Shown: piece by piece, positions 4,136 to 36,530 of the stretch
How positions within the stretch are numbered: the stretch's first letter is position 1
Layout: each line of letters starts with the position of its first letter
Assembly: GCA_024401305.1 (NCBI GenBank)
Contig: JAKSLI010000031.1
Location: forward strand, 1-37,593
Reading direction: 5' to 3'
DNA length: 37,593 nt
Source of the DNA: Bacteroidaceae bacterium
GTDB lineage: Bacteria; Bacteroidota; Bacteroidia; Bacteroidales; Bacteroidaceae
The notes under the pieces: model-generated
What the model saw: only the letters and a program-made list of their open reading frames with translations
The model's database searches: none
Told to the model about the DNA's origin: nothing
Program-made: the position numbers and the translations under genes

Positions 4136-4152
4136 TTGGTGTTTGTATTTCA

Positions 4153-4166: not shown

Positions 4167-4183
4167 AGACACTGGGGCTTCTT

Positions 4184-5374: not shown

Positions 5375-5383
5375 AATTCTTTG

Positions 5384-6652: not shown

Positions 6653-6691
6653 GTTTGAAGTGTTAAGTATGAAGTTTGAGGTAAGGTAGGA

Positions 6692-7920: not shown

Positions 7921-9240
7921 TTACTTTGCGAAGAGTGTTGCGCTGAGGTTCTGGAGAGCACGCTTCTTGTCAACTTCCTGGATGAGGAAAGAGATGTTGA
8001 AGTTTGAACCGCCGTAAGAAACCATGCGAACAGGGATGTCCTTCATTGCTTCTGTAGCGAGTGTCTCGAAACCTACGTTATTCCATTCAAGGTCGCCTAC
8101 GACGCAGATGATACACATGTTTGCATCAACGGTTACAGTTCCGTACTTCTTGAGTTCGTCAACGATCTTGCCGAGGTTTGTGTTGTTGTCGATGCTTACA
8201 GAAACGCCAACCTCGCTAGTTGTTATCATGTCGATAGGAGTGTTGTAACGCTCGAAAGTCTCGAAGATCTTGCGGAGGAACCCTGAAGCAAGGAGCATAC
8301 GACTACTCTTGATCTTGATAGCTGTGATGTTGTCCTTAGCAGCAACTGCCTTGATCTTGCCACGCTGGAGGTCGTTGTTGATGATTGTGCCAGGAGCTTC
8401 TGGATCCATTGTGTTCTTGAGACGAACAGGAACACCAGCAAACTTCGCAGGTTGAACGCATGTTGGGTGGAGAATCTTTGCTCCGAAATATGCGAGTTCT
8501 GCTGCTTCCTCGAAGTTAAGCTGAGCAACGGCTTCTGTGTTGTCAACGAAACGAGGGTCGTTGTTGTGCATTCCGTCGATGTCTGTCCAGATGATGATTT
8601 CGTCAGCCTTGATGGCAGCACCGATGAGAGATGCTGTATAGTCAGAACCACCACGGAGGAGGTTATCAATCTCGTCGTAGGCATTCATGCAGATGAAGCC
8701 CTGAGTGATGTAGATCTGATAGCCGTCGTTAGCTTCGAGCACGCGGTTAACATTCTCTGTGATGTAGTGCATGTCAGGTTCAGCGTTCTTGTCTGTCTTC
8801 ATGAAATCGAAAGCAGAAAGAAGTACTGTCTTCACGCCACATTCCTTGAGATAATTGGCAACCATGTTTGTAGAGAGAATCTCACCCTGAGCAACAACCT
8901 TCTTCTCCTCTGCACTTGTGAAATGACCTTTAGTGAAAGAGCGGAGATAGTTGAAGCGGTCAGCAAGGATTTCGCGAACAGTTTCCTTTGTTTCTTCCTT
9001 AGAATAAAGTTCGTCGATGTGCTTGTTGTACTTGTTCTCAAGCTGACGGATTACCTCGTGAGCACCTTCTGGATTGTTGTGGTAGAGGTAGTTTGAGATT
9101 TCGATGAGAGAGTTTGTTGTTCCTGACATCGCAGAAAGCACAACGAATGTTGGTTCGCCGCTTGCTGTTATGAGCTTTGACACGCTTTGCATACGCTCTG
9201 GAGAGCCTACGCTGGTGCCGCCGAATTTCATTACTTTCAT
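7921..9240 (-). CDS. lysC: Aspartate kinase
   Basis: Phosphorylates aspartate, the committed step toward lysine, threonine and methionine. The protein has 439 residues, the length of a monofunctional enzyme, not a fused homoserine dehydrogenase. It opens with the conserved KFGGTSVGSPERMQ, and shows FICMNAYDEIDNLLRGGSDYTASLIGAAI (substrate/ATP region, cited in parts: LLRGGSDYTAS) and WTDIDGMHNNDPR. Residues ~300-439 form two ACT domains (for example ITAIKIKSSRM and VDANMCIICVVGDL), the usual seat of lysine feedback inhibition. It is followed by lysA, which fits a lysine-sensitive isoenzyme, but the effector is an inference. Confidence 0.96.
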   Translation of the reverse strand: MKVMKFGGTSVGSPERMQSVSKLITASGEPTFVVLSAMSGTTNSLIEISNYLYHNNPEGAHEVIRQLENKYNKHIDELYSKEETKETVREILADRFNYLRSFTKGHFTSAEEKKVVAQGEILSTNMVANYLKECGVKTVLLSAFDFMKTDKNAEPDMHYITENVNRVLEANDGYQIYITQGFICMNAYDEIDNLLRGGSDYTASLIGAAIKADEIIIWTDIDGMHNNDPRFVDNTEAVAQLNFEEAAELAYFGAKILHPTCVQPAKFAGVPVRLKNTMDPEAPGTIINNDLQRGKIKAVAAKDNITAIKIKSSRMLLASGFLRKIFETFERYNTPIDMITTSEVGVSVSIDNNTNLGKIVDELKKYGTVTVDANMCIICVVGDLEWNNVGFETLATEAMKDIPVRMVSYGGSNFNISFLIQEVDKKRALQNLSATLFAK

Positions 9241-11767: not shown

Positions 11768-12481
11768 TTAAAGGTTCAGCTTGCTGATGTCTATTCTGCC
11801 TTCGTAGAACGCTTTGCCAAAGACTACCGCTGGGATGCCTGCTTCGTCGAGGGCTTCGATGTCTGCGTTAGAGGAAACGCCGCCGGAAGCTATGAGATGG
11901 AAGTCAGGGGATTGCTGCATGATTTCCTTGTAGAGCTCAATGGCAGGGCCTGCGAGAGTGCCGTCTTTTGAGATTTCTGTGCATAGGACATTCTTGATTC
12001 CCTTTTCGGCATAGAACTGAAGGAATGGCATCAAATCGTCGGCGGAATCTTCCTTCCAACCGTTGATGCTTATCTTCCCGTTGCGGACATCCGCGCCAAG
12101 GACTATCTTTTCTGCTCCGAAACGCTCGATGCAACGGCAAGTGAAGTCACGATCCGTTACGGCAATAGAGCCGAGAGTGACCATCTGTGCGCCAGCTTCG
12201 AAAGCTTTCTGGAGGTCTTCTTCTGACTTGATACCGCCGCCAAAGTCAACGACAAGATTCGTTTCCGATGTGATTCCCTTGAGAACATCCACATTCACGA
12301 TATGCTTTGCCTTAGCACCATCAAGGTCAACGACATGAAGGCGCTTGAAACCGAGGCGTTCAAACTCCTTGGCAACTTCAACGGGATTCTCGTTATAGAC
12401 CTTCTTCTGGTCGTAATCGCCTTTGGTTAGGCGGACGCATTTGCCGTCGATTATGTCTATGGCTGGGATGAGTTCTATCAT
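11768..12481 (-). CDS. hisA: ProFAR isomerase (1-(5-phosphoribosyl)-5-[(5-phosphoribosylamino)methylideneamino]imidazole-4-carboxamide isomerase)
   Basis: Fourth step of histidine synthesis. The 237-residue barrel is the paralogue of HisF. It shows the catalytic Asp9 in LIPAIDIIDGKCVRL, the half-barrel phosphate motifs VVDFGGGIKSEEDL and LIASGGVSSNADI, and CTEISKDGTLAGP in the second half. It overlaps the hisH stop by four bases (ATGA, 12478-12481), indicating translational coupling with HisH. Confidence 0.96.
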   Translation of the reverse strand: MIELIPAIDIIDGKCVRLTKGDYDQKKVYNENPVEVAKEFERLGFKRLHVVDLDGAKAKHIVNVDVLKGITSETNLVVDFGGGIKSEEDLQKAFEAGAQMVTLGSIAVTDRDFTCRCIERFGAEKIVLGADVRNGKISINGWKEDSADDLMPFLQFYAEKGIKNVLCTEISKDGTLAGPAIELYKEIMQQSPDFHLIASGGVSSNADIEALDEAGIPAVVFGKAFYEGRIDISKLNL

Positions 12482-13071
12482 ATTTCCAGGAAATTCTTTA
12501 GGATAGTTTCTCCTACGCGACCGCTTTTCTCTGGATGGAACTGCGTTGCGTAGAAATTGTCCTTGTGGAGAGCTGCGCTGTATGGCAGGATATAGTCGGC
12601 TGTGGCTATGGTGTATTCGCTTTGTGGCACATAGTATGAATGCACGAAATAAGCGTAGTCGTTGCCGTCCTTCAGATCCTTGAACAAAGGTGTCTTGAGA
12701 TCACGGAGTGAATTCCAACCCATGGCAGGAACCTTGTCCTCGTGGTTTACTGGCTGGAAACGCTTTACAGGCAAGTCAAAGATACCGATGCAGTCAACAT
12801 CGCCTTCCTCAGAATGCTTGCACATAAGCTGCTGACCAACGCAAATGCCAAGAACCGGCTGCTTCAAATCGCGGATAATCTCGTCGAGGCGGTGGCTCTT
12901 GAGTGAAGCCATCGTGGTGCTTGCTTCGCCTTGTCCAGGGAAAAGCACGCGGTCAGCCTTCTGGAGAATCTCCGCATCATGAGTGAGCACAGGTTCTATG
13001 CCAAGGCGTTTCAGGGCATTTATCACGCTGAAGATGTTGCCTGCGTTATATTCTACTACTGCAATTTGCAT
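12478..13071 (-). CDS. hisH: Imidazole glycerol phosphate synthase, glutaminase subunit
   Basis: Class I glutamine amidotransferase that feeds ammonia to HisF. The 197-residue protein has the nucleophile Cys77 in LGICVGQQLM and the His179/Glu181 pair in QFHPEKSG; the oxyanion-strand region is RVLFPGQGEA. MGWNSL and YFVHSYYV are typical HisH segments. It starts 12 bases after the purU stop and overlaps hisA, so purU and the his genes are one transcript. Confidence 0.96.
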   Translation of the reverse strand: MQIAVVEYNAGNIFSVINALKRLGIEPVLTHDAEILQKADRVLFPGQGEASTTMASLKSHRLDEIIRDLKQPVLGICVGQQLMCKHSEEGDVDCIGIFDLPVKRFQPVNHEDKVPAMGWNSLRDLKTPLFKDLKDGNDYAYFVHSYYVPQSEYTIATADYILPYSAALHKDNFYATQFHPEKSGRVGETILKNFLEI

Positions 13072-13083
13072 CCTAAAGTTGCT

Positions 13084-13956
13084 TTAGTTGAAGATGAAAG
13101 TACGGTTATTATAGCTTAATATCTTGTGAGCGATGTGCTTCTTGACAGCGCGAGAGAGCACAATCTTCTCCAAGTCCTTGCCCTTGAGAACGAGAGTCTC
13201 TGGAGTATCGCGGTGAGTGATGCGAACAACATCCTGCTCGATGATAGGTCCTGCGTCGAGTTCGGTAGTCACATAGTGGCTTGTAGCACCGATAATCTTC
13301 ACGCCGCGCTGCCATGCCTGGTGGTAAGGTTTTGCACCAATGAAAGCAGGAAGGAAAGAGTGGTGGATGTTGATGATGCGATTTGGATAAGCCTCGATCA
13401 TGTTTTCAGTCACAATCTGCATGTAACGGGCGAGAACGATGAAGTCGATGTTCTCCTTCTTGAGGAGTTCCATCTCGGCTGCTTCCACCTCATCCTTGTT
13501 CGAGTGGTCTTTCTTGATTGACCAAACATAGTAAGGAATGTTGAACTGCTCTGCCACATAGCGAAGGTCCTCGTGGTTGCTGACGATGCAAGGAATCTCG
13601 CAATCGAGTTCTCCGGCATTGTAACGTGCCAGGAGATCGTAGAGGCAGTGGCTCATCTTTGATACGAAAAGTGCCATGCGAGGCTTTATGTCGCTGAAGT
13701 AGAGATGGTACTTCATGTCATAACGCTGGGCATAGAGCGTATTGATATATTCGTTGATCTTGTCTCTTGGAATGAGGAAACCTTCGAGTTCCCATTCAAT
13801 TCGCATGAAGAACACGCCGTCGTGGTGGTCAACATACTGGTCAAGGTAAACGATGTTGCCTTTGTTGTCTGTGATGAACTTTGTTACTTCCGTGATGATA
13901 CCCTGCTTGTCTGGGCAGTATAGAAGAAGTATCGCTGTTGGTTTCTTGTCTGTCAT
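13084..13956 (-). CDS. purU: Formyltetrahydrofolate deformylase
   Basis: Hydrolyses 10-formyl-THF to THF and formate, balancing one-carbon pools and supplying formate. The 290-residue protein has an N-terminal ACT domain (residues ~6-85; ILLLYCPDKQGIITEVTKFI) and a C-terminal formyltransferase-like domain with the catalytic set visible in IINIHHSFLPAF and TTELDAGPIIEQD. The ATG at 13956 gives the usual length. It is the first gene of the minus-strand run, with a -7 box at 14000-14007. Being placed just before hisHAF is suggestive: HisHF release AICAR, whose recycling to purine uses 10-formyl-THF. Confidence 0.95.
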   Translation of the reverse strand: MTDKKPTAILLLYCPDKQGIITEVTKFITDNKGNIVYLDQYVDHHDGVFFMRIEWELEGFLIPRDKINEYINTLYAQRYDMKYHLYFSDIKPRMALFVSKMSHCLYDLLARYNAGELDCEIPCIVSNHEDLRYVAEQFNIPYYVWSIKKDHSNKDEVEAAEMELLKKENIDFIVLARYMQIVTENMIEAYPNRIINIHHSFLPAFIGAKPYHQAWQRGVKIIGATSHYVTTELDAGPIIEQDVVRITHRDTPETLVLKGKDLEKIVLSRAVKKHIAHKILSYNNRTFIFN

Positions 13957-13999
13957 ATATTCGTTTTTTGTGAAGGATCGTTATATTAAATAATGCGTG

Positions 14000-14007
14000 C
14001 AAAGTTA
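14000..14007 (-). promoter_or_regulatory. purU: -7 promoter box of the purU-his-lys operon
   Basis: TAACTTTG followed by GC on the minus strand, 44 bases before the purU ATG, matching TAnnTTTG. No clear TTTG at the right distance was found. Confidence 0.6.
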
Positions 14008-14288
14008 CGAAAAATCGCAACCAATACCATTTTATGGTAATAAAAATATCTTCTTTCGGAAAATTTCTTAACTTGTCACAATATTTGCATTTCGTGGAAG
14101 AGAGCGTGTTATGACAGTATGATATTATCGGATTGTAAGCAATAATGGGGATTTTGGTTACAAATCGTCACTTCGGTTTTTGCAAGATTTTCGCTTCAAC
14201 TAGCAAACAGCAAGGAAGTTTTTGCTTCGGAAAAGGCAATCTTTCGCGCTTTATTTGCCGTTTTTGTGAAAACTCATAGGAATTTATG

Positions 14289-14324
14289 TCGTTTTACCGT
14301 GAGATATTTTCGTTTTACCGTGAG
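14289..14324. repeat. Tandem 15-bp direct repeat, 21-bp spacing
   Basis: TCGTTTTACCGTGAG at 14289-14303 and 14310-14324, identical, two helical turns apart. The arrangement suggests a pair of regulator sites on one face of the DNA, but no regulator is known from the sequence. Confidence 0.6.
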
Positions 14325-14504
14325 TTTTTGGGTGAAAATGACAAGGAAAATGAGCGAAAAAGAGGGCGTTTTCCTACTGTTTTCGAGTGGCAAAAATGTA
14401 ATGTTCTGATAATCAGATGTTTGTGAACTCGTGTAGAATGGCGTTATTTTCAGCTAATTGTTCGGAGAAAATTTTGATGCCCTTCTGCGTGAGGAATGAA
14501 AAAT

Positions 14505-25728: not shown

Positions 25729-26547
25729 ATGGCAAGCATGCAAGATAGACATATTACACTGCCGAAATGGCTGGATGACTTGTTGTTCAACAAGTTGTCT
25801 GCTTCATATTGCCGAAAGAACAAAGATCTTGTTGTTCTTGACTGGGGTCATAAAGATATTCTTGGATATTTAGGAACCTATTTCCCAAGGAGTTTTGCTG
25901 AATCCTATTGTATCTTTAGTAAATATCTAAATGATAATAGGCAGAAGTATCTTGACAAAGCAGAATTATCTGTTTTCGATTTCGGATGTGGCACAGGTGG
26001 CGAACTTATCGGCTTTATTATCGCAGTATCAGAACAATTACCATCGGTCAGTCATATTGATATAAGAGCCTTGGATGGAAATGTTCATGCGCTACGTATG
26101 TTGGAATTTATTCTTGAAAACGTTTCACAACGTCTTGAGATTAGTTTTGATAACCATCTTATGCCTATAGTGATTGATGATTTCTATGACATGGGGATTG
26201 TAACTGACATAATTACCCAATCATTTGATTTCGTTATTTCGTTTAAGGCTATCTGTGAATTTGTTACACGACAACAATTTGAAGAACAAAATCCATACGA
26301 ACATGTGATTAATGTGTTCAGTCCTAAATTGGCTTCAGATGGAATAATCTGTCTGGCAGATGTAACATCATATAGTGAGGTTTCAAATGATTGGTTACCC
26401 AAAATGTTAGACAAAGCCTCTAATGCTTGTAACGTTGAAATATTGTGTAGAAATTGCGGATTTAATGAAGAGTATCGTATAACGCATTCACACCATACCA
26501 ATGATACAAGCAAAATAGCCTGGAGAATTTACAAGATAAACAATTAA
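25729..26547 (+). CDS. SAM-dependent methyltransferase-like protein
   Basis: 272 residues. Motif I is LSVFDFGCGTGGELIG (Asp84 to Gly91), a good class I SAM-binding loop; IDIRALDGNVHAL is the acidic loop binding the ribose (motif II); SFDFVISFKAICEF is the motif IV area, without the N/DPPY signature of DNA amino-methyltransferases; and GIICLADVTSY fits the later strand. The N-terminal ~75 residues are helical and may recognise the substrate. It is 13 bases upstream of the helicase-like gene, first in a seven-part co-directional cluster, so it probably belongs to the same system. Target (nucleic acid, protein or small molecule) cannot be told. Confidence 0.75.
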   Translation: MASMQDRHITLPKWLDDLLFNKLSASYCRKNKDLVVLDWGHKDILGYLGTYFPRSFAESYCIFSKYLNDNRQKYLDKAELSVFDFGCGTGGELIGFIIAVSEQLPSVSHIDIRALDGNVHALRMLEFILENVSQRLEISFDNHLMPIVIDDFYDMGIVTDIITQSFDFVISFKAICEFVTRQQFEEQNPYEHVINVFSPKLASDGIICLADVTSYSEVSNDWLPKMLDKASNACNVEILCRNCGFNEEYRITHSHHTNDTSKIAWRIYKINN

Positions 26548-26560
26548 ATTTTATACGCAT

Positions 26561-27673
26561 ATGAAAAAAGACTGGATGATCAAAGAGTCCGAACTTGATG
26601 ACGACCAGATTAAGGTTCTTATGGAAACCCTTGACAAATCTTGCATCGTAGCAGGATGTGCAGGAAGTGGAAAGTCTGTTTTGGCGTTGATCAAGGCTCA
26701 GCGAGTACAAAAAGAGTATGGCAACAACTACAAAGTTATTGTCTTCACTAAAGCTCTTTGCAATTACATGAACTCTGGCAAACAAGAGTTAGGGCTCACT
26801 AATGACTTCTACTATCATCAAGAGTGGAAGTATCAGCGAGAAAGAAGAGGTAGGTACATGGTGTACAGTAGAGATGAAAATGGAAATATGATTCCGTATA
26901 TGCCATCTGCCGATTATATTATTGTAGATGAAATTCAGGATTTTAGCGATGAAGAAATCAAAGAATTCTTGAATGCTACACATAAAAATTTCTTCTTCTT
27001 TGGTGATACTGCTCAGTCTATCTATGAAGGTCTTAAAACAACTCTACCAGTCGATAGAATCAGTTCAATCGTACCTCTTAACATGAAAGTTAAGAATTGG
27101 GAATTATACAGAAATTATCGTCTTCCTTTGCCTGTAGCAAGAGTAGTGCAGCCTGTAGGTGTCGATCTTCCTCCATTCATAGAAAGTACCTATAAAAGCA
27201 AGGAAACAGCAATACCTAGATTCTTGAAATATAATGATGAAGAAACTCAGATAAAGGCTATTCATGATATTATCGTCAAGAATAATATGACTGATGTAGC
27301 TATTCTCTTACCAGATAATGATTATGTCAAGAGTGTTTATGATCAGTTGAAGGCTCTGGGCGGCAATTATGAACTTCGATATAATGATAGAGAAAACTTC
27401 AGGAATAGCCAAGATAGTCTGAACTTTGGTTCAACTAATCCCAAAGTAATGACTTATCATAGTGCCAAAGGATTACAATTTGAAACAGTATTCCTTCCAT
27501 ACATTGAGAACTTCTCTGGAGACGAATCTGACAGAAAGGCATTGTATGTGGCTATGACTCGTACATACAGAAATCTTTATGTTATGTATTCTTCTATCTT
27601 ACCATCACCGCTCAATAAGATAGACTCTAGTCTTTACAAGACAACAGAAATTGATGAAATCGAAGACTTGTAA
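26561..27673 (+). CDS. Compact SF1 (UvrD/RecD-like) helicase or NTPase
   Basis: 370 residues with the complete SF1 motif set: Walker A AGCAGSGKSVLAL (Lys38), motif Ia IVFTKAL, Walker B YIIVDEIQDF (Asp123-Glu124), motif III FFFFGDTAQSIY, motif IV region NYRLP, motif V KVMTYHSAKGLQFETVFLP and motif VI LYVAMTRTYRNLYV (Arg334). The protein is about half the size of UvrD because the 1B and 2B subdomains are almost absent, so it may act as an NTPase switch or translocase in a complex rather than a free helicase. It has 2 bases to the 773-residue gene downstream, so they are surely co-translated. The small size resembles ATPase subunits of several phage-defence systems (inference). Confidence 0.85.
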   Translation: MKKDWMIKESELDDDQIKVLMETLDKSCIVAGCAGSGKSVLALIKAQRVQKEYGNNYKVIVFTKALCNYMNSGKQELGLTNDFYYHQEWKYQRERRGRYMVYSRDENGNMIPYMPSADYIIVDEIQDFSDEEIKEFLNATHKNFFFFGDTAQSIYEGLKTTLPVDRISSIVPLNMKVKNWELYRNYRLPLPVARVVQPVGVDLPPFIESTYKSKETAIPRFLKYNDEETQIKAIHDIIVKNNMTDVAILLPDNDYVKSVYDQLKALGGNYELRYNDRENFRNSQDSLNFGSTNPKVMTYHSAKGLQFETVFLPYIENFSGDESDRKALYVAMTRTYRNLYVMYSSILPSPLNKIDSSLYKTTEIDEIEDL

Positions 27674-27675
27674 TT

Positions 27676-29997
27676 ATGAAATATTATATTCCAACTAGTT
27701 CATTGAACTTTAATAATATTCTCTCAACGGAATCAATATCGCCAAAGTCTTTCTATGAAAGAAGGGGATTTGGTTATTCTCGTTGGTTCACTGTTGAAGA
27801 GAATTCCATAGAGCATTTGACGATACTCTATGACAAACCACATATGTTTGAACGTCCGCAATCTGACATTGAGGATCATCCAATGCTGATAGAAATTGAT
27901 GTAGATGATGAGTTCTCCAAACTTGCTGATGGCGTATTCTATACAGAAAAAACTATTTATCTTAATCCTTGGCAGACAAAGTTTATCTTTTTCGCAGAAA
28001 AGGACAAAACGACAGCATTGTCACTATCTGATAGCAGCTTAGAGACAAAATTGGTTAGATTGTACCAAAGAAAGATTTATGTTCACCAATTTGAAGGCTC
28101 ATATCCTATACTCCAGAAAGATAGCATTGTTCCTATTGGCGATATAGATAGTTTGGTAGAAAAGGATTATGTTATCAATAAGATGAAGGGTCTCTTATAT
28201 GGATATTATATAGGAGCCAACTTGTCATCTACGAAGGAAAATGTCCAGAAACTTGACGCTTTGCGTGAAATTCAAAACATTTTCTCTTCGGTATTGTCTA
28301 GTTATGATAAAACTCCATCAAGTGCGCAACGCTCACGATTAAATGAGCTTTTCGACTACCTCGATAGTCAGCAACCTATTTATGCAGACTTGGAAAAAGA
28401 AGTAGGTAATAGACTGTTGGTAGATAAAATATTTGCGATATTCAAGCGTCATGGCTATGTGTTTACGTCCATTGACCGAACAAAATTAATTTATGGTCTG
28501 CAAGATGATGGCGAAAATAACCAGTCAATTACATGGATTAATCGTGAGATTGCACGTGCCAAGTCTTTAATGGAATCTTCAAAAGTTAAACTGAATCCTG
28601 ATGATGCAGAGATAATCGTGTCATCGAAGGATAAAGTTACGGCTCCCATAGCAATAGCAGACAACCTTATGTCAAACTTGTTTGTTAGCTGGGTTAATGA
28701 AGTTCTTTGCTCTAAATCATTTAATGGAAAGGTTAACTCTATCAAAGAAGGGCTTTCTGATGAGATTACAAAATCGGCAAAGAACGTAATTGGCTCAGAT
28801 TGGGAAAATAGTCCTGTTAGAACATACCTCAACCAACTTCGCCGTCATGTACGTGGTGAAGAATTTAACCAGTCATGGGATAATGGGGTTTTGTCTTCAA
28901 TATCGGCAGTTTTGATAAAAGGGGACGAATGGGAGCAACTTCTGAACTTTATGCAGAGCAAAGGCATGTATGATTATCGTATTGCTTTCGCATTGTATGG
29001 AGTTCTCAATGGCTTTGCAAATATGACACGTGATTTTACGGATTTGCTCCTTACTACAGAGTCAGGTTATCTATCAAAGGTTTATCGTGAAATGTACGGT
29101 CAACTCTTAGAGAAGAGCATTCCTGAGACCACCAGCACATCATCAGCTATTGAGACAAAGAAACCAGAGATTGGAACTGTAGAAGAGGGAATGCGTACAA
29201 TAGTCCTTAAAAATCCAGAGGAAAAAGCCCTTAAAGAGTGGCAAAACGAGATTAGAGTATTTGCTGCATCTGTAATTAAAAGGGATAAGCAAAAGCTTCT
29301 TAATTCACTTGAAGATGCCTTTGCTCAAAATGGTAATAATCAAGACTATTTCGTTTTTATAACGATGCTTGATAACTTCGAAGGCTGGAAACCTGGCAAG
29401 AATGGTCCAAGTACAGCATGGACAAGATTGCAGGAGCATTATGTCCCTGACTATAACCAACGTATAGGCAAGCCTGCAAAGAAACAAAGCCAAAGCAAGA
29501 AACCAGCACAACAAGAAAAGGGCTTGTTTGATGGCTTTGTAGATGGATTGCAAAATGTTGCTCAAACCGTTATAAACGCATTCACAGGTGACGAAGATAA
29601 AACTAATAAGGAAGAACCTAAACAAGAATCTTCCTCTCCTAAAAAAGTAGAACAAGCAGTTTCTCGCGTAGGAAAGTCTATACTTGATGACAAAGCTTGG
29701 ATATATGAATGCGCTTCTTTGATTTCTGATTCTCGTGCCAATAGGCAATTTATTGAGGATATGGAATGGTTTGTAGGAAATCACAATGATACCTACAATG
29801 ACAAAAAGAAGGGGATTGTTACGGGGTATTATGCAGGACATGATCGAACTAACGAACGTGTACTTGAAAGAATTAGGGCCTACATGGATAATAAACTTAA
29901 GCCTCGTAGTGAAAAAATGCAATGGCTTGCCGACATCTATGTAAATATCCCTATTAATAAAATAATAGATTATATTTCAAAAGTATATGGCGTCTGA
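27676..29997 (+). CDS. Large uncharacterised protein (773 residues) of the helicase operon
   Basis: No domain I can name. The N-terminus MKYYIPTSSLNFNNILSTES and the block up to residue ~170 are beta-rich with many aromatic residues (FGYSRWFTVEEN; WQTKFIFFAEKD). Residues ~190-500 are mostly helical (KMKGLLYGYYIGANL; YRIAFALYGVLNGFANMT). Residues ~540-590 are helical and basic. A Lys/Gln/Ser-rich, probably flexible linker (~600-660) contains an amphipathic segment at 616-638 (GLFDGFVDGLQNVAQTVIN). The C-terminal ~100 residues form another helical domain. No nuclease, protease or transmembrane signature is seen. Two bases separate it from the helicase gene, and the DUF1848 remnant overlaps its 3' end by 11 bases. 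It is likely the core or effector subunit. Confidence 0.8.
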   Translation: MKYYIPTSSLNFNNILSTESISPKSFYERRGFGYSRWFTVEENSIEHLTILYDKPHMFERPQSDIEDHPMLIEIDVDDEFSKLADGVFYTEKTIYLNPWQTKFIFFAEKDKTTALSLSDSSLETKLVRLYQRKIYVHQFEGSYPILQKDSIVPIGDIDSLVEKDYVINKMKGLLYGYYIGANLSSTKENVQKLDALREIQNIFSSVLSSYDKTPSSAQRSRLNELFDYLDSQQPIYADLEKEVGNRLLVDKIFAIFKRHGYVFTSIDRTKLIYGLQDDGENNQSITWINREIARAKSLMESSKVKLNPDDAEIIVSSKDKVTAPIAIADNLMSNLFVSWVNEVLCSKSFNGKVNSIKEGLSDEITKSAKNVIGSDWENSPVRTYLNQLRRHVRGEEFNQSWDNGVLSSISAVLIKGDEWEQLLNFMQSKGMYDYRIAFALYGVLNGFANMTRDFTDLLLTTESGYLSKVYREMYGQLLEKSIPETTSTSSAIETKKPEIGTVEEGMRTIVLKNPEEKALKEWQNEIRVFAASVIKRDKQKLLNSLEDAFAQNGNNQDYFVFITMLDNFEGWKPGKNGPSTAWTRLQEHYVPDYNQRIGKPAKKQSQSKKPAQQEKGLFDGFVDGLQNVAQTVINAFTGDEDKTNKEEPKQESSSPKKVEQAVSRVGKSILDDKAWIYECASLISDSRANRQFIEDMEWFVGNHNDTYNDKKKGIVTGYYAGHDRTNERVLERIRAYMDNKLKPRSEKMQWLADIYVNIPINKIIDYISKVYGV

Positions 29998-30139
29998 AAA
30001 AGTTTCAATTCGTACGGACTCTGGAGAAATTGTAGAAGCAACCGCTCCTGTCATTATCTCAGCCTGCCGTTCAACCGACATTCCGCCCTTTTTGCCAAGT
30101 GGTTCTTCAACCGCTTGGACAAAGGGTCAGGGAGATTAA
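29987..30139 (+). pseudogene. Truncated, frameshifted 5' remnant of a DUF1848 gene
   Basis: The ATG at 29987 overlaps the end of the 773-residue gene (ATGGCGTCTGA). It encodes MASEKVSIRTDSGEIVEATA then PVIISACRSTDIP, the same N-terminus as the intact DUF1848 gene at 31189 (EATAPVIISASRSTDIP). After the IP codons a one-base loss (CCGCCCTTTTTGCC against CCTGCTTTTTATGCC) shifts the frame. DNA similarity continues through AAGTGGTTCTTCAACCGCTTGG to 30127 and then stops. The remnant thus lacks over 85 percent of the gene, including the cysteine cluster. Confidence 0.9.
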
Positions 30140-30166
30140 GTTTTATCACTTTTGTTATATTTATTT

Positions 30167-31186
30167 ATGATAGTTCACGAATCCATGTTGGATGTAAACC
30201 AAGTGAGGTTTATTTGTCGTAAAAGTGAGAAGTATGTTCTTCTTGCCGGTTGCGTAAAAAGTGGCAAAACAATTTGTATGTTACATAAGTGCAAACAATT
30301 GTTGGCTAATAATACTCAGGCTGAAATACTCTGGCTTACCCAAAATTCCTTATATAAATCCTTTCTATGTTCTGCTTTCAATGAACTTGGAATAAAATGT
30401 ATATTGCAAACTATAAATGAGTTTTTTAAAGCCAATACTAGAAGTTATGATTATGTATTTGTTGATGAAGCATCATTCTTAACGGATGAGCAATTAAAGC
30501 AGATTGCTAACATTTCATGCCAATCTTTGTTTTTATCCATTACAGAAGGTGATATTAGACCTCCATTTTTTTTCCAGGAAAATGCAAAAGGAGTCGATTC
30601 TAATGTAATCTGCAGACTCTTAAAAATAAAGAAACAATCACTTCTTTTCAGTTTTCTAAATAATGGAACAAAAAAACTTCTTTCGGAATTATGCGATAAC
30701 GAATCTGAAATTTTAGAAAGTATAGTAAATCATTCTCCTTCCCTATGTCAATATAAAGAACTATTGAAGCTAGAGTCTATTGTAGAATTTATAAAAAATC
30801 GAATTATTAACAGGGAGGAGAGAAATGTTGCTATTTTGTGCTATTCAAATGATGATGTTGCAAACATTTGTCATGAGTTTAGTCAATCCACATTTAAAGT
30901 GGAATCTAAATATAGCAAAAGTGTTGCATGGAAGAATGATATAGATTTCACGTCTTGTTGTCCAAAAGTTATGACCATTCATTCGTGTGTTGGTATTTCT
31001 TTTGACAATGTATATGTTATTTTGAATAAAAGACTTTTAGACAATTTTGAAGAACATAGGGATTTGATTGCGTACGCTGTGACGAGAGGTCTTCATGATG
31101 TCGTTATTATAAGTGACCTTCCGCTACCTAATGTTATAACAGACAATGCTACACAAATATCAGATGAAGCAGAAATAAATATATAA
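30167..31186 (+). CDS. Second helicase-like ATPase with eroded motifs
   Basis: 339 residues from the ATG at 30167. It follows the plan of the 370-residue helicase: Walker A LAGCVKSGKTICML (Lys34) is intact, motif II is YVFVDEASFL (DEAS instead of DEIQD), the motif III glutamine block GDTAQS is lost (LSITEGDIRPP), motif V is KVMTIHSCVGISFDNVYV (AKG replaced by CVG), and motif VI keeps AYAVTRG (Arg307). The gene is clearly more AT-rich than its neighbours. It sits between the DUF1848 remnant and the intact DUF1848 gene, 2 bases before the latter. It could be a regulatory or ATP-binding-only paralogue, or a helicase from another version of the system. Confidence 0.7.
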   Translation: MIVHESMLDVNQVRFICRKSEKYVLLAGCVKSGKTICMLHKCKQLLANNTQAEILWLTQNSLYKSFLCSAFNELGIKCILQTINEFFKANTRSYDYVFVDEASFLTDEQLKQIANISCQSLFLSITEGDIRPPFFFQENAKGVDSNVICRLLKIKKQSLLFSFLNNGTKKLLSELCDNESEILESIVNHSPSLCQYKELLKLESIVEFIKNRIINREERNVAILCYSNDDVANICHEFSQSTFKVESKYSKSVAWKNDIDFTSCCPKVMTIHSCVGISFDNVYVILNKRLLDNFEEHRDLIAYAVTRGLHDVVIISDLPLPNVITDNATQISDEAEINI

Positions 31187-31188
31187 AT

Positions 31189-32235
31189 ATGGACAAAATA
31201 CAAATCACTAACGATGCTGGCGAGCAGGTAGAAGCAACTGCTCCTGTCATTATCTCTGCCAGTCGTTCAACCGATATTCCTGCTTTTTATGCCAAGTGGT
31301 TTTTCAACCGCTTGGCTAAAGGGTATTGCGCTTGGTACAATCCGTTCAACCAGCAGAAGATGTACATTTCGTTCAAGAACTGCAAGGTGGTGGTGTTCTG
31401 GACAAAGAATCCAAAACCGATACTACCTTACTTGCATGAGTTAGACGAAAGAGGCATCCATTATTACTTCCAAGTCACTCTTAACGACTATGTTAAGGAA
31501 GGATTTGAACCTAATGTTTCTTCCGTAGATGATCGTGTCGAGACATTCAAGAAGTTGTCGGAAATGATTGGCAAGGAAAGAGTAATCTGGCGTTTTGATC
31601 CTCTGATTATTACTCCTAACATTACTCCTCGCGACTTGTTGACACGCATTTGGCATGTGGGAAACAAACTGAAAGGTTACACAGACAAGTTGGTTTTCAG
31701 TTTTGTTGATGTGAAAGCATATCGAAAGGTTCAAAATAACCTTGTTAAGGAAACCATGCTCTTCACGAAAGAGGACGTTGAAAATGCAGAAGCGAACCAT
31801 GCTCAACGAATGGAAATAATACAAGGATTACAGAAGATTCGCGAAGCATGGCACAAAGATGGTTGGGACATTGAGATTGCTACTTGTGCAGAAGATATTG
31901 ACCTTGAATCGTACGGCATTGAGCACAATCGTTGTATAGATGGCGAATTGATGAAACGAATCTTTGCTGATGATGAAGAACTTGTCTATTATCTCCACAC
32001 TCTCAAATGGCCTGAGCGAAACATGCTCGGAGAACTGCCACCAATCCCGGAGAAGAAACGCAAAGTTAAGGATGCTGGTCAACGCAAGATATGTGGTTGT
32101 ATGGTGAGCAAGGACATCGGAATGTACAACACCTGCCGCCATTTCTGCGTATATTGTTATGCCAACACTAGCAAGGAGTGTGTGTTGAAGAACAAGGCGA
32201 AGCATAATGATGAAAGTGAAAGTATAATTGAGTAA
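31189..32235 (+). CDS. DUF1848 protein, radical-SAM-like cysteine cluster
   Basis: 348 residues. APVIISASRSTDIPAFYAKWF, WYNPFNQQKMYISF and VVVFWTKNPKPILPYL are the conserved N-terminal blocks of DUF1848 (PF08902). The C-terminus has CGCMVSKDIGMYNTC and RHFCVYCYAN: the cysteines at about 316, 320 and 323 follow CX3CX2C, the [4Fe-4S] pattern of radical SAM enzymes, but placed at the C-terminus, as known for this family. Reaction is unknown. Directly downstream of a helicase-like gene; a broken copy lies 1.2 kb upstream after the 773-residue gene, so DUF1848 appears to be a regular partner of this cluster. Confidence 0.88.
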   Translation: MDKIQITNDAGEQVEATAPVIISASRSTDIPAFYAKWFFNRLAKGYCAWYNPFNQQKMYISFKNCKVVVFWTKNPKPILPYLHELDERGIHYYFQVTLNDYVKEGFEPNVSSVDDRVETFKKLSEMIGKERVIWRFDPLIITPNITPRDLLTRIWHVGNKLKGYTDKLVFSFVDVKAYRKVQNNLVKETMLFTKEDVENAEANHAQRMEIIQGLQKIREAWHKDGWDIEIATCAEDIDLESYGIEHNRCIDGELMKRIFADDEELVYYLHTLKWPERNMLGELPPIPEKKRKVKDAGQRKICGCMVSKDIGMYNTCRHFCVYCYANTSKECVLKNKAKHNDESESIIE

Positions 32236-32250
32236 GTTCAAAATTGAGAA

Positions 32251-32697
32251 ATGCATAGGATAAAGAAACTCTTTGTTACCGTTCCTTTTCAAGTTTGTGT
32301 GGCATTCTTGATGGGATTAGGGAAATGCTTGGGATTGACTTACAAGCAGATATCTGTGTATTTTAACCTTTACTTTCAGGGATTTTTATTATTGGTGTCT
32401 AGTGTGTTACCGTTTGTAGCTTCATTTATTCGTTTATGCCAATATACGACATTTGCAAATGGGATAATGACTTTGGCTTTTCTTGGTTATGGAAGTGTCA
32501 ATTTGGCAGGTTTTATATGGTTGATGATTCACTATAAAGGTACAACTGAGTATGCTTTTGATAAGTGTGTTGCAGATTTATTAGTCGTAGCAAAATTTTG
32601 GCATTGTTCCTACAATATGGTAAATCTGGTAATCTTTATTCTATGGTGGTTATCGTTAGTGGGTATTAATATATTCGTTAGTTTATTGTTGTTTTGA
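32251..32697 (+). CDS. Small polytopic membrane protein
   Basis: 148 residues with about four hydrophobic segments: FQVCVAFLMGLGKCLGL, YFQGFLLLVSSVLPFVASFI, MTLAFLGYGSVNLAGFIWLM and NLVIFILWWLSLVGINIFV. No known family. It starts 15 bases after DUF1848 and could be the membrane effector of the same system (as small membrane proteins often are in defence operons), or an unrelated passenger. Confidence 0.6.
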   Translation: MHRIKKLFVTVPFQVCVAFLMGLGKCLGLTYKQISVYFNLYFQGFLLLVSSVLPFVASFIRLCQYTTFANGIMTLAFLGYGSVNLAGFIWLMIHYKGTTEYAFDKCVADLLVVAKFWHCSYNMVNLVIFILWWLSLVGINIFVSLLLF

Positions 32698-32905: not shown

Positions 32906-32937
32906 CTTGCTAGCTACGGATTTTCTTACTATATTTG
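32906..32937 (+). promoter_or_regulatory. Promoter of the toxin-antitoxin pair
   Basis: CTTG (32906-32909) and TATATTTG (32930-32937) are 20 bases apart, close to the Bacteroidota consensus, 21 bases before the toxin ATG. Confidence 0.7.
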
Positions 32938-32958
32938 CAGCCGATAAAAATATATCTA

Positions 32959-33312
32959 ATGGTAACGAAAGAACAAGTGGAAGCGTTTCTTGAAGAGCTC
33001 CATACAAAGATGAAAATCTTCGGGATATTATTTCGTGACGACAGAGATAAGAACAAGAACACTTTACAGGAGTTGGAGATTGTACCTTCCTATCGTAAGG
33101 TTGTCGTGGAAAACTTGCGTGTTGAGGATTATGTCCAAGGTCCTGTCGTTGACGAATTAAATCGACATGGCGAGATGTGGGTGTTTGGTAAAGATGTAAA
33201 AGGCAGGGAGATTTACATTAAAGTTATGATTGTTGATGCTACAAGTCAGACGATATGCATTTCTTTCCATTTTGCAGAGCATCCATTAGTTTATCCTTTT
33301 AAAGAACAGTAA
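32959..33312 (+). CDS. MqsR-like toxin
   Basis: 117 residues from the ATG at 32959; a leftward extension to 32935 runs into the promoter. The C-terminal block MWVFGKDVKGREIYIKVMIVD and ICISFHFAEHPLVYPF resembles the MqsR/RelE-like ribonuclease toxins (YIKI..ISFH). The N-terminal half has VEDYVQGPVVDELN. MqsR family members cleave mRNA independent of or on the ribosome; activity here is an inference. Two bases separate it from an antitoxin with MqsA-like HTH and Panacea domains. The toxin-first order is the same as in mqsRA. Confidence 0.75.
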   Translation: MVTKEQVEAFLEELHTKMKIFGILFRDDRDKNKNTLQELEIVPSYRKVVVENLRVEDYVQGPVVDELNRHGEMWVFGKDVKGREIYIKVMIVDATSQTICISFHFAEHPLVYPFKEQ

Positions 33313-33314
33313 CT

Positions 33315-34304
33315 ATGTTGAGTCCATATACAGGTAAGGAAATGAAGTTGGTGTACGAGCCTCGTACATGGAACTTCCGAGGTGAGGATTATGATTATAT
33401 CCATACCTCGTATAAATGTGAAGATACAGGTGAACTTTTCACTACGTGTGAAAGCGATGATGCAGGCTTCTTGCAAGTGACAAATCAGTATCGTGCTAAG
33501 TATGGCATTCCTTTTACGGACGAGATTATTGCCGTACGCAATCGTTATGGAGTTTCTGCTGCTAAGATGTCTGTCATTTTGGGTATTGGTACTAACCAAT
33601 GGCGACTGTATGAGAGTGGGGAGGTGCCTAGTGTTTCCAATGGTCGTATGATTCGCTCAATAATGAATCCAAAGGTTTTTCTTGATCTTGTGAAATCTAC
33701 GCGTCTGCAACTTACGGATAAGGAGTATTCAAATATCTCAGAGAAAGTACAAAAGGTGATAGCGCAATCTGCCGATTACCATCTTGATGCGTACGATCGT
33801 CGTAGAGTGTTTAGCTCCGTTCGTGGAGTGGATAATGGTTATTCTGCCACATCGCTCCAGAAGCTTAAGGCTATAATGCTGATGGTATTGCAAGAATGTG
33901 GGGAAGTGTTTTGCACGAAAATGAATAAACTTCTGTTCTACATTGACTTCTTGTCATACCGGCAACGCGGCTTTGCCATGACCGGCTTGTGTTACCGTGC
34001 CATAGATTTCGGTCCTGTTCCAGACAGATGGGATAGGGTTTATAGTGAATTTGACGAGATTCATCAGGAACCACGTCCAATTGGTGAATATGAGGGTAAT
34101 GTACTTGTTTCAGATGCCATTGCAGACAATTCGCTTTTGTCAGATGGTGACCAGGAGATAATTCTAATCATCTGCAATCGTTTCAAAAGTTGTACGTCAA
34201 GTGAGATTTCTGCCATAAGTCACGAAGAGCCTGCTTGGCAGAAGTATCATAAGGATCATGCTAGGATTCCATTTGCAGAGGCCTTTACTCTAAAGGGTGT
34301 ATAG
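33315..34304 (+). CDS. Antitoxin: MqsA-like DNA-binding plus Panacea/SocA domain
   Basis: 329 residues. Residues ~1-60 align with the zinc-finger part of MqsA-like antitoxins, but the first CxxC is replaced by SPYTGKEM, leaving only the later cysteines (YKCEDTGELFTTC), so a normal zinc site is unlikely. Residues ~65-115 are an HTH (IIAVRNRYGVSAAKMSVILGI; RLYESGEVPS). Residues ~185-325 are the Panacea/SocA (DUF4065) domain: CTKMNKLLFYIDF, YRAIDFGPVPDRWDRVYSEF. Panacea is known as an antitoxin domain able to pair with many toxin folds. It probably neutralises the MqsR-like toxin and represses the shared promoter. Confidence 0.85.
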   Translation: MLSPYTGKEMKLVYEPRTWNFRGEDYDYIHTSYKCEDTGELFTTCESDDAGFLQVTNQYRAKYGIPFTDEIIAVRNRYGVSAAKMSVILGIGTNQWRLYESGEVPSVSNGRMIRSIMNPKVFLDLVKSTRLQLTDKEYSNISEKVQKVIAQSADYHLDAYDRRRVFSSVRGVDNGYSATSLQKLKAIMLMVLQECGEVFCTKMNKLLFYIDFLSYRQRGFAMTGLCYRAIDFGPVPDRWDRVYSEFDEIHQEPRPIGEYEGNVLVSDAIADNSLLSDGDQEIILIICNRFKSCTSSEISAISHEEPAWQKYHKDHARIPFAEAFTLKGV

Positions 34305-34866: not shown

Positions 34867-34898
34867 TTTGGAAGTTTCAGTTGTTTTTTATAATTTTG
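34867..34898 (+). promoter_or_regulatory. hipB: Promoter of hipB-hipS-hipT
   Basis: TTTG (34867-34870) and TAATTTTG (34891-34898) are exactly 20 bases apart, a full Bacteroidota consensus, lying between the two palindromic operators. Confidence 0.8.
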
Positions 34899-34905
34899 CA
34901 CCCAA

Positions 34906-34925
34906 AAGTATAATATATAATACTG
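34906..34925. promoter_or_regulatory. HipB operator, downstream copy (putative)
   Basis: AAGTAT-AATATATA-ATACTG, 18 of 20 bases as in the upstream operator, covering the likely transcription start and ending two bases before the hipB ATG. Confidence 0.7.
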
Positions 34926-34927
34926 TT

Positions 34928-35128
34928 ATGGACTTGGCTGTTACATTGAAAGAACGCCGTCAGGCTCTTGGTATTTCGCAGGTTGACCTTGCGGAAATGG
35001 CGGGCATAGGCATTGCTACGGTAAAGAGTATTGAGTGCAGAAAGGCTAATCCTTCGCTTCGGACGGTGGAGGCTCTTGCCGAGGTGCTGGGACTTGAACT
35101 GTCTTTGGCAGTTAGAAAAACAGTATAG
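34928..35128 (+). CDS. hipB: HipB-like Xre-family antitoxin/repressor
   Basis: 66 residues, essentially one Cro/C1 HTH domain: LKERRQALGISQVDLAEMAG then IGIATVKSIECRKANPSLRT and VEALAEVLGLELSL. The ATG at 34928 follows the second operator directly; the longer upstream frame would pass through the promoter. In HipBA/HipBST modules HipB dimers bind palindromes and repress the operon together with the kinase. The two operators around its promoter support autoregulation. It lies 68 bases before hipS. Confidence 0.9.
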   Translation: MDLAVTLKERRQALGISQVDLAEMAGIGIATVKSIECRKANPSLRTVEALAEVLGLELSLAVRKTV

Positions 35129-35196
35129 GTGGGGGCTTAACATTAATCACTAAACACTAAATCATAAATCATACGTCAAAAATCATAAATGTGGTT

Positions 35197-35517
35197 ATGG
35201 CAAAACAACTTCTCATATATTCAAACAAGACGTTGGCAGGTACACTCACTCAGTATTCTTCCAACGAATATGAGTTTGTCTATGATGCTGGTTTCTGCAA
35301 TGGCAAGAATCATTCTATATCCCCCACACTGCCACTTACGCCAGAGTCGTATCGTTCTGACCATTTGTTTCCTTTCTTTGCCAATCTTCTGCCAGAAGGT
35401 GCCAACAAGCGCACGATCTGCCGTCATCTACACATAGACGAGAATGATTATTTCTCTCTTTTGGCATCGTTCTCCGGTAAAGACATAATTGGCAATATTT
35501 CGATAGAAGCATTATGA
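35197..35517 (+). CDS. HipS-like protein (separate HipA N-terminal subdomain)
   Basis: 106 residues from the ATG at 35197 (a GTG lies two codons upstream). It corresponds to the N-terminal subdomain-1 of HipA (HipN/Couple_hipA): QLLIYSNKTLAGTLTQ, YEFVYDAGF, DHLFPFFANLLPEGANKRTI and DENDYFSLLASFSGKDIIGNISI. In HipA this is fused to the kinase; here it is a free protein overlapping the kinase start by 4 bases (ATGA). In the known E. coli HipBST system the free HipS acts as the antitoxin. The same role is inferred here. Confidence 0.87.
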   Translation: MAKQLLIYSNKTLAGTLTQYSSNEYEFVYDAGFCNGKNHSISPTLPLTPESYRSDHLFPFFANLLPEGANKRTICRHLHIDENDYFSLLASFSGKDIIGNISIEAL

Positions 35518-36530
35518 AAGAACGTGATATAAGGGTTTGTCCTTCGACATTGGCTGAGGGGCATACTACATATAGTAAGCTGGCACTGCGCAATCTTTTT
35601 GATGGTAAGCTTGTGTCGCATCATCTGGACTTCACATGGGAAGATGATGCTGACGAAGGTGTTCTTGCTGAGAATTCACGCAATCTTTCCATATCTGGGG
35701 TTCAGGAGAAACTGTCTGCATTGGTAAGTGATGGTGAGCTACGATTGATCAACGCAGGAGAACGAGGCACTCATATATTAAAACCTTCGCCGAGAGAACA
35801 TTTTCAATATCGTAAGCAGATTCCTGCAAATGAACATCTGACGATGCAGATTGCATCGCAGGTGTATGGTATAAATACAGCGGCAAATGGACTTGCACTT
35901 AGCAAGGATGGGCAGTTTGTATATGTGACAAAACGTTTTGATGTTCTTCCCAATGGAGAGAAACTTCAACAGGAGGATTTCTGTTCTTTGGTTGGGCGTA
36001 CTGAGGAAATCAACGGCATTGACTTCAAATATGAAGGTTCATACGAGGACATTGCTATCTGTATCCGTAAATATATCCCTGCTTGGCCTGTAGCTATGGA
36101 GCAGTTCTTTCGTCTTGTAGTGTTCAATTATATTTATGGTAATGGCGATGCACATCTGAAGAATTTCTCCGTCTTGTTTCGTAATGGGGAGTATATGATG
36201 GCTCCAGCTTATGACCTCATCAACACCAGGGTTCATATTGATGGTCCTGACTTTGCCTTGAACGAAGGCCTATCGTCAAGACTTGAAAAGAGTGAGACAT
36301 ACGAGCAGACATTACATCCTTGTCGTGCTGACTTTCTCGCCTTTGCACGGCTTATAGGCATGAATGAGCGTCGTGCCAACAAGATTCTTGACCAATTTGA
36401 TACTGTGCCTGATTCTGTTGATATTCTGATCAACCGTTCTTTTCTATTTGATGATAAGACAAAGAGGCTTTACCGACGTATTGTTGCAGAACGGATGTCT
36501 TGGTTTTTACGTACGGATAAAAAAGAGTAA
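35514..36530 (+). CDS. HipT-like Ser/Thr kinase toxin (HipA C-terminal part)
   Basis: 338 residues. The glycine-rich loop is LSISGVQEKLSAL with Ser59-Ile-Ser61, the autophosphorylation-type S-x-S seen in HipT rather than the single serine of HipA. The catalytic loop is NGDAHLKNFS (Asp212), and the metal-binding motif is YDLINT (Asp234). HipA-family kinases phosphorylate tRNA synthetases (HipA: GltX; HipT: TrpS) and stop translation; the target here is not evident from the sequence. Length, split architecture and gene order B-S-T fit HipBST. All catalytic residues are present, so it should be active. Confidence 0.9.
   Translation: MKERDIRVCPSTLAEGHTTYSKLALRNLFDGKLVSHHLDFTWEDDADEGVLAENSRNLSISGVQEKLSALVSDGELRLINAGERGTHILKPSPREHFQYRKQIPANEHLTMQIASQVYGINTAANGLALSKDGQFVYVTKRFDVLPNGEKLQQEDFCSLVGRTEEINGIDFKYEGSYEDIAICIRKYIPAWPVAMEQFFRLVVFNYIYGNGDAHLKNFSVLFRNGEYMMAPAYDLINTRVHIDGPDFALNEGLSSRLEKSETYEQTLHPCRADFLAFARLIGMNERRANKILDQFDTVPDSVDILINRSFLFDDKTKRLYRRIVAERMSWFLRTDKKE

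Follow-up and report, generated by a model that had tools for sequence, protein, structure and literature searches.

The stretch of DNA analysed here, referred to as the window, is contig JAKSLI010000031.1 (our C41) of a Bacteroidaceae bacterium (assembly GCA_024401305.1), which covers 37,593 nucleotides (nt) of a genome of 3.2 Mb in 115 contigs. This study concerns seven frames at 25729-32697, all on the forward strand, and in particular four of them, which recur elsewhere as a cassette: the genes for a class I S-adenosylmethionine (SAM) methyltransferase (MT), a compact superfamily 1 (SF1) NTPase (NTP; the window copy is NTP1), a protein of 773 amino acids (aa) here called BIG and a protein of the DUF1848 family. 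The remaining frames are a DUF1848 remnant, a second SF1-like gene (NTP2) and a membrane protein gene (Table 1). An earlier note, made from the letters of the window, had described six intact co-directional genes and one remnant with tight gaps, in an island with two toxin–antitoxin modules. The gene layout was recovered at the same coordinates, with intergenic distances from MT to the membrane gene of 13, 2, -11, 12, 2 and 15 nt, and the modules are present as two toxin–antitoxin-like loci, one with a weak MqsR match and the other, of the Hip kind, recognized by eye. The GC content is 33-40% across 25-33 kb, compared with mostly 44-52% upstream. Loci found elsewhere are labelled L followed by three digits.

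Table 1. Genes and loci of the window and, in the last four rows, stand-alone proteins related to the C-terminal tail of BIG.
Feature	Coordinates	Strand	Size	Remark
MT, class I SAM methyltransferase	25729-26547	+	272 aa	first cassette gene
NTP1, compact SF1 NTPase	26561-27673	+	370 aa	
BIG, family-less protein	27676-29997	+	773 aa	
DUF1848 remnant	29987-30139	+	50 codons	11-nt overlap with BIG
NTP2, diverged SF1-like paralogue	30152-31186	+	344 aa	
DUF1848, radical-SAM-like	31189-32235	+	348 aa	last cassette gene
Membrane protein	32251-32697	+	148 aa	
MqsR-like/Panacea toxin–antitoxin-like locus	32935-34304			MqsR weak, E = 0.03; Panacea/SocA, 1.6e-18
HipB/HipA-type locus	34868-36530			by eye
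Stand-alone tail protein, L059	5996-6580			
Stand-alone tail protein, L061	9709-10329			
Stand-alone tail protein, L062	9852-10445			
Stand-alone tail protein, L063	7172-7753			

Of 399 genomes from the same bacterial family that were searched for BIG relatives, 21 gave a match; four of these (G403, G528, G639 and G671) matched with the tail only, in stand-alone proteins of 193-206 aa that were not scored as BIG, and 17, including the window's own, were kept, so that the presence of the cassette is patchy. A profile search of 395 genomes of the phylum found BIG in four, again including the window's own, and a search of GTDB contigs gave four BIG loci; viral contigs gave none in one search, and three further contigs came from other searches. 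In all 30 loci with enough sequence the NTP gene lies directly upstream of BIG on the same strand, at a spacing of -89 to +32 nt; since the loci were located via BIG or NTP, the figure describes BIG loci, while L065 and L068, with an NTP-like gene and no BIG nearby, lie outside the 30. MT and DUF1848 could be scored in 28 loci, where both are present in 22, both are missing in six (L058, L064, L069, L071, L074 and L084) and neither ever occurs singly. L058 stops 590 nt behind BIG, and excluding it the count is 22, 5 and 0. L005 and L014, cut by contig ends, are outside this count, L006, in which BIG is cut, is outside both counts, and L075-L077 are outside all counts. The order MT–NTP–BIG–DUF1848 is the same in every four-gene locus (22/22, window included). 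MT–NTP–BIG–DUF1848 is a fixed-order operon, NTP–BIG is its common core, kept also where the outer genes are missing, and MT and DUF1848 are a co-inherited pair. A divergent BIG and a long NTP type are common to L058, L060, L069 and L074; of these four, L060 has both MT and DUF1848, and the other three have neither. Between BIG and DUF1848, L047 contains 2.5 kb of further sequence (11873-14400) and L083 a gene for 273 aa (8046-8867); accessory or tail-linked genes are possible at these positions.

The ratio of nonsynonymous to synonymous substitution (dN/dS) between the window and L004 is 0.009 for NTP and 0.10 for BIG, indicating purifying selection on both, and because of this and of the recurrence of the same gene order elsewhere the gene set goes beyond chance. 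The closest named relatives of the window's cassette are from Prevotellaceae. The membrane protein gene and NTP2 were ruled out as parts of the system, since neither is conserved: the former has no match in 31 other loci and the latter no close relative in 60 genomes. A plasmid-borne candidate was also rejected, as the 596-aa partner of a Persicobacter NTPase, compared with the BIG profile in a search of two sequences, gave no match (E = 0.12). The full cassette also occurs in L037 (MT835661.1), deposited without annotation as Bacteriophage sp.; an AlbA_2-type gene and what looks by eye like an integrase gene accompany it, and the record may represent a mobile element instead of a phage.

The cassette is a mosaic. 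Across 18 loci, pairs of DUF1848 proteins are on average 70% identical (39-96%), compared with 44% for NTP, 38% for MT and 29% for residues 1-480 of BIG. Over 22 loci the rank correlation of pairwise identities is 0.67 between NTP and the N-terminal part of BIG (0.75 on 18 loci), 0.41 between MT and NTP and 0.37 between MT and the N-terminal part of BIG, while any pair that includes DUF1848 or the BIG tail (the last 110 residues) gives -0.01 to 0.14; on 18 loci the correlations of DUF1848 are 0.07-0.18. As judged from these identities, NTP and BIG co-evolve, and the core, DUF1848 and the BIG tail reassort among loci. L052 and L056 are 97.5% identical in nucleotide sequence over the start of MT and its upstream region, and again over DUF1848 and the next gene, but the interior holds different alleles, with amino-acid identities of 34% for the methyltransferase domain, 41% for NTP and 25% for BIG. 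L051 and L070, which are related elements with a MobA-like relaxase (by eye), show nucleotide identities of 91% and 96% on either side of a gap that corresponds to the last ~200 codons of BIG; at the protein level residues 1-500 of BIG are 95% identical, DUF1848 94% and NTP and the methyltransferase domain 82%, whereas the final 110 residues of BIG are 12% identical. Relative to the window, L007 has a BIG tail with 67% and a BIG N-terminal part with 28% identity, and L045 has 67% over residues 1-500 and 24% in the tail. In approximately unbiased (AU) tests, grouping L052 with L056, which are sisters at 100/100 in the DUF1848 tree, was rejected in the NTP tree (p-AU 4e-7), and grouping the window with L004 was rejected in the DUF1848 tree despite NTPs that are 99% identical; the swap pairs were picked after the identities had been viewed, and these p-values are post hoc.

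The arrangement in the window itself appears to carry traces of such an exchange. The remnant matches the 5' ends of intact DUF1848 relatives, with the frame lost; its homology to 16 loci stops at 30125-30127 (blastn), and its overlap with BIG is also found in the copies of L004, L005 and L007. The remnant is followed by NTP2 and then by a complete DUF1848 gene whose product is 96% identical to that of L050, although the MT, NTP and BIG of L050 are only 29-38% identical to those of the window. The most plausible reading of the window's extra genes is that an exchange anchored in DUF1848 left them behind as a scar.

The alignment of BIG contains conserved blocks at residues ~1-230 and 365-470, a variable middle and an exchangeable end of ~110 residues. 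No consistent family was found for 22 members in Pfam (18 families at E ≤ 1, each in at most 3/22, best 0.0094) or in PHROGs (nine weak matches, best 0.0051), none of 30 members matched a PADLOC model at 0.01, GajA included, NCBIfam gave no match, and the BIG profile found no convincing relative in the PDB (best 0.022). A DarT-like ADP-ribosyltransferase at the N-terminus, prompted by the motif YIPTSSLNFNNIL, was considered and found to be unsupported, with hhalign values of 0.2-0.3% against a poor comparison set of three usable sequences, two of which have long extra parts. Most tail variants look by eye like versions of one domain with a common WF, YY, N, I-F and L-Y pattern. A domain homologous to the tail also occurs in stand-alone chromosomal proteins of 193-206 aa from the same bacterial family (Table 1), and these could reveal the binding partner of the tail.

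NTP1 matches UvrD_C (1.2e-10) and Viral_helicase1 (7e-11) in Pfam and GajB-type models in PADLOC (1.2e-17), and the NTP profile finds HelD (9.5e-26), UvrD (5.5e-17), GajB (2.6e-14) and, weakly, Schlafens in the PDB. Its SF1 motifs I-VI are intact (Walker A, DExQ, GD-Q as motif III, the motif IV Arg, V and VI) and are conserved across 20 homologues, which places it in SF1 among UvrD/HelD/GajB-like proteins. The NTP proteins are mostly of 340-370 aa (433-541 aa in L058, L060, L069 and L074) and, judging from this length and the alignment, are too short to contain the 1B and 2B insert domains of UvrD-type processive helicases. NTP2 retains 28 of 58 conserved NTP columns; Walker A and the motif VI Arg remain, but the Gln of motif II and the Arg of motif IV are gone, as is motif III, so that the SF1 motif set is incomplete. 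NTP2 would be either a regulator or a recently decaying gene.

MT gives a weak, general SAM methyltransferase match in Pfam (Methyltransf_31, E = 0.0013, under the Pfam cut-off), and the motif YxGTYFPRS and the glycines of the SAM motif GxGG are invariant in 20/20 aligned sequences. In L050, L051, L052, L056 and L070 the protein is long (678-703 aa); the L051 protein, the sole long MT scanned in Pfam, has an N-terminal NERD domain (1.6e-8), and in the alignment most MTs are without this extension. PADLOC models matched among 20 MTs include mad2 in eight (best 3.7e-9), RT_UG35 in six (4e-9) and PDC-M16A in four (3.4e-35), and one matches a type I methyltransferase model at 0.0025. An assignment to Rsm22-type ribosome enzymes was rejected, as hhalign gave about equal scores for Rsm22 (88-91%), CheR (91-95%) and UbiE (69-90%); the MT profile found no convincing relative in the PDB.

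The DUF1848 protein of the window is a clear member of PF08902 (E = 3e-94) and matches the PADLOC model RTasDUF1848 (2.4e-43). The Pfam description of DUF1848 mentions a C-terminal cysteine cluster, and in the window protein this region (residues 316-323 of 348) contains a CX3CX2C motif whose C316, C320 and C323 are invariant in 24/24 sequences, as in the cluster motif of radical SAM enzymes. The stretch matches positions 37-80, at the N-terminal end, of the NCBIfam model PA0069 (0.0003, below the model cut-off), and against a profile of 18 PA0069-family proteins the cysteine segment alone gives P = 2.6e-9, while the remainder alone gives P = 0.026, which is nonsignificant though above five unrelated profiles. 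When the end of the protein is moved to the front, correspondences in the barrel can be seen by eye (TDIPAF/TDCYQP, TKNP/TKNA and FEPNV-R/MEPRT-R). Rotation raised the score from 66.4 to 75.9 bits in one input; in a rerun without L057, an outlier, the score was 61.6 bits for the natural order and six rotations alike, and the aligned length rose from 54 to 202-213 columns for late cuts. Kinship of DUF1848 to radical SAM proteins is supported by these comparisons, whereas a circular permutation is only suggested, because the cleaned input gave the same score whatever the rotation. The DUF1848 profile found no convincing relative in the PDB, the term DUF1848 was not found in 5.39 million open papers, and no paper combining circular permutation, radical SAM and spore photoproduct lyase was found in the open literature. 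In L074 (12343-14753), two genes lie behind the divergent NTP–BIG pair, the first of which encodes a radical SAM-type CNLRCEYCC motif (by eye); another radical SAM partner may replace DUF1848 there.

The cassette sits beside defence genes. All 190 genes within 5 kb of 26 cassettes were scanned against PADLOC at 1e-10, with 136 genes from 18 regions of cassette-bearing genomes as controls (the seven longest of 143 being omitted for size). The flanking genes matched 137 models among 103 genes and 152 among 87, compared with 12 among the 136 control genes; these are counts of models and not of genes, and are inflated by families with many models. Among the 25 models listed per set, the strong flank matches are PglX (E = 0), JetD (5e-149), PDC-S05 (6e-140), PDC-S02 (1e-130), PDC-M01A (4e-122), PrimPol (3e-86) and KwaB (3e-73), and the best control match is 2.5e-43. 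In L064 the NTP–BIG pair follows PglX (E = 0, as for the type IIG model), with two small genes between, and BrxC-, PglZ- and BrxL-like genes (by eye) make the surroundings a BREX-like locus; the pair in L084 stands behind XRE- and ImmA-like genes, with multiubiquitin/ThiF-like genes close by (all by eye). Genes of AlbA_2/Schlafen type (1.9e-11 in Pfam for the L007 copy) lie near 10/26 cassettes, one of them short, and follow DUF1848 by 3-5 nt in five, and L071 adjoins an integrase-like and a capsid-like gene (by eye). Behind DUF1848 in L057, at 1939-7182, a PD-Lambda-4_A-like protein (1.7e-25) and a pVip-like radical SAM protein (2.4e-14) are encoded. An integration hotspot behind trxB, where the window and L067 both have the cassette, was dropped as an explanation, as 0/20 further trxB neighbourhoods of the same genus held the cassette or the window's next gene.

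As for the toxin–antitoxin-like loci of the window, the protein encoded directly after the MqsR-like one in the first combines an MqsA-like part (0.02) with a Panacea/SocA domain, and the two are possibly a hybrid MqsR–Panacea pair. The second encodes a HipB-like protein of 86 aa, a short HipA N-terminal part of 108 aa and a HipA-like kinase of 338 aa with a 4-nt overlap, and we take it, by eye, to be closer to the three-gene HipB–HipS–HipT type than to plain hipBA.

Known multi-gene systems share features with the cassette without covering it. BREX (Pgl) likewise combines a methyltransferase, an ATPase and large proteins, but the window's cassette has no PglZ, BrxC/PglY, BrxL or PglX match, and PglX is not among the 14 PADLOC models matched by the 20 MTs. 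Type I restriction–modification systems exchange specificity by swapping the target domains of HsdS, a likeness to the recognition-like part exchanged here within steadier genes; however, the window genes have no HsdR, HsdM or HsdS match, and the swapped part is a C-terminal region of ~110 residues of no known family. Gabija also pairs a UvrD-type NTPase with a large partner, but BIG has no match to GajA (OLD/TOPRIM), and NTP is mostly shorter than GajB (~500 aa). No DrmA or DrmB (DUF1998) match, as would be expected for DISARM, occurs in the window genes among the matches listed (for NTP1, 25 of 39). The PADLOC candidate PDC-M16 shares its component PDC-M16A with the four matching MTs, which are probably those with the NERD extension, but BIG has no PDC-M16 match, nor does NTP1 among its best 25 of 39 matches, and PDC-M16 was not named in the open literature searched. 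The DUF1848 family is shared with the accessory proteins of reverse transcriptase (RT) systems (DRT), but the cassette is without an RT gene, and the only RT signal in the window genes is the weak RT_UG35 match of MT (2.4e-4, model positions 47-145 of 938). DUF1848 resembles PA0069 and spore-photoproduct-lyase-like proteins in the cysteine segment and, by eye, in the barrel motifs TD, TKN and EP-R, and differs from them in that its CX3CX2C motif is C-terminal and not near the N-terminus. Passages of PMC10853773, PMC12458937 and PMC12839542 deal with other systems that have NERD or helicase parts; the present gene set does not appear in them. Nothing that combines a NERD domain with methyltransferase, anti-phage and helicase was found in the open literature.

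Set against these results, the earlier note is partly supported, and its main idea stands in a narrower form. Its proposed core of the ATPase and the adjacent 773-residue gene is borne out by all 30 loci, its statement that the larger protein lacks a known family agrees with the searches of Pfam, PHROGs, NCBIfam, PADLOC and the PDB, and its radical-SAM-like reading of DUF1848 agrees with the invariant cysteines and the PA0069 match. The conserved ATPase–773–DUF1848 neighbourhood that it looked for in defence islands is found in 22 loci, and the flanks of the cassettes scanned are richer in defence genes than the controls; homologues of the 773-residue protein without consistent partners, which it named as the opposite outcome, were not what was obtained, although 6/28 loci have neither MT nor DUF1848. 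The multi-gene system stands for MT, NTP, BIG and DUF1848, and fails for the membrane protein and the second NTPase-like gene. The note did not recognize the set as a named phage-defence system, and the window's cassette lacks the parts that define BREX, DISARM, Gabija, type I restriction–modification and DRT. It did not mention that MT and DUF1848 go together, that parts of the cassette are swapped, that some MTs have a NERD domain or that 4/20 MTs partly match PDC-M16A.

A near-constant last enzyme combined with swapped inner genes and a swapped tail suggests that the cassette is an immune system not described before, in which target recognition can be exchanged. It is probable that the cassette functions in defence, and with modest confidence we read MT–NTP–BIG–DUF1848 as an undescribed, horizontally moving system of Bacteroidota against invaders, most likely phages. 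The division of labour among the four proteins can be proposed tentatively, and is more doubtful. BIG would be the recognition and scaffold subunit, with its exchangeable C-terminal domain, together with the fast-changing middle, setting the target. NTP, as the partner of BIG, would use ATP to link recognition with action; being too short for the 1B and 2B domains, it would probably serve as a switch or a translocase and not as a processive helicase. A modification arm would be formed by MT and DUF1848, each of which is expected to depend on SAM. Its substrate would be common to strains, and this would account for the near-constancy and interchangeability of DUF1848; this arm might mark self, or might alter a component or target on which the core acts. 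Where present, NERD would add a nuclease, and in loci without MT and DUF1848 the NTP–BIG core would run with other partners, such as BREX genes or WYL or XRE regulators. The cassette would fit multi-gene methyltransferase-plus-NTPase immunity, and there is a minority chance that it constitutes a new category. In the most far-reaching version, which we regard as rather doubtful, it would be a new type of immune system, in which an NTPase and orphan-family core is diversified by core exchange and by swapping of the C-terminal recognition domain, while a near-constant SAM-using pair, including a permuted radical SAM enzyme, installs or removes an undescribed mark that separates self from invader.

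Several points weigh against a defence system organized in this way. As BIG contains no recognizable domain, its role is deduced from its evolution, and its dN/dS of 0.10 is a sign of purifying and not of positive selection. Instead of an invader target, the partner of the exchanged tail could be a host protein or DUF1848, although tail variants do not track DUF1848 (rank correlation 0.14), and DUF1848 is not constant everywhere, the L057 protein being an outlier at ~40% identity. MT has no DPPY-type amino-methylase motif by eye, and the profiles do not single out its substrate class, because CheR and UbiE score like Rsm22. The inflated model counts belong here too, as does the control set, which is small (18 usable regions), consists partly of contig ends and is unmatched for mobile elements, so that part of the flank enrichment could reflect mobile islands in general. 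Finally, the cassette was found in 0/72,556 plasmid records and in 1/50,697 phage records.

Other explanations account for some of the same observations. A C-terminus that is swapped while the N-terminus stays steadier recalls polymorphic effectors, and with stand-alone proteins that have the same tail and toxin–antitoxin-like loci in the same island, this could point to an abortive-infection or toxin-like unit, in which BIG would be the effector, its tail a variable effector domain, and MT and DUF1848 its restraint or activator, with no marking of self and non-self. We consider this unlikely, since most tail variants are by eye versions of one domain and not unrelated toxins, and no gene, DUF1848 included, was seen to vary along with the tail as an immunity gene would. 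It is likewise unlikely that the cassette serves nucleic-acid repair or modification for the mobile elements themselves. An SF1 NTPase, a SAM methyltransferase and a PA0069-like radical SAM motif would suit DNA or RNA processing, and the relaxase-bearing elements of L051 and L070 and the integrase- and capsid-like neighbours of L071 are mobile settings, but the cassette is placed by PglX, JetD, KwaB and PDC genes and is present in a patchy way, in 17/399 genomes of the same family, and a reassorting recognition-like tail would be unexpected for a repair function.

It is very unlikely that the set has already been described as PDC-M16 or as an RT-associated (DRT) set. Some MTs do match PDC-M16A (4/20), mad2 (8/20) and RT_UG35 (6/20), and DUF1848 matches RTasDUF1848; against this, BIG is without a PADLOC model in 30/30, PDC-M16A is missing in 16/20 MTs, the best 25 of 39 matches of NTP1 contain no PDC-M16 part, and the window genes have no other RT match. 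That unrelated genes merely came to lie together by chance in an AT-rich island is scarcely credible, and is refuted for the four core genes by the same order in 22 loci and by the co-evolution of NTP and BIG, even though the window's copy does include the non-conserved NTP2 and membrane genes.

If the reading of MT–NTP–BIG–DUF1848 as an anti-invader system is correct, Bacteroidota would possess a defence system built around a protein outside all described families, recognition-domain exchange would extend beyond restriction enzymes, and a further radical SAM enzyme would be involved in immunity besides the viperin-like ones. The natural pair L051 and L070, with nearly identical BIG proteins up to residue 500 and unrelated tails, makes the question of specificity directly testable.

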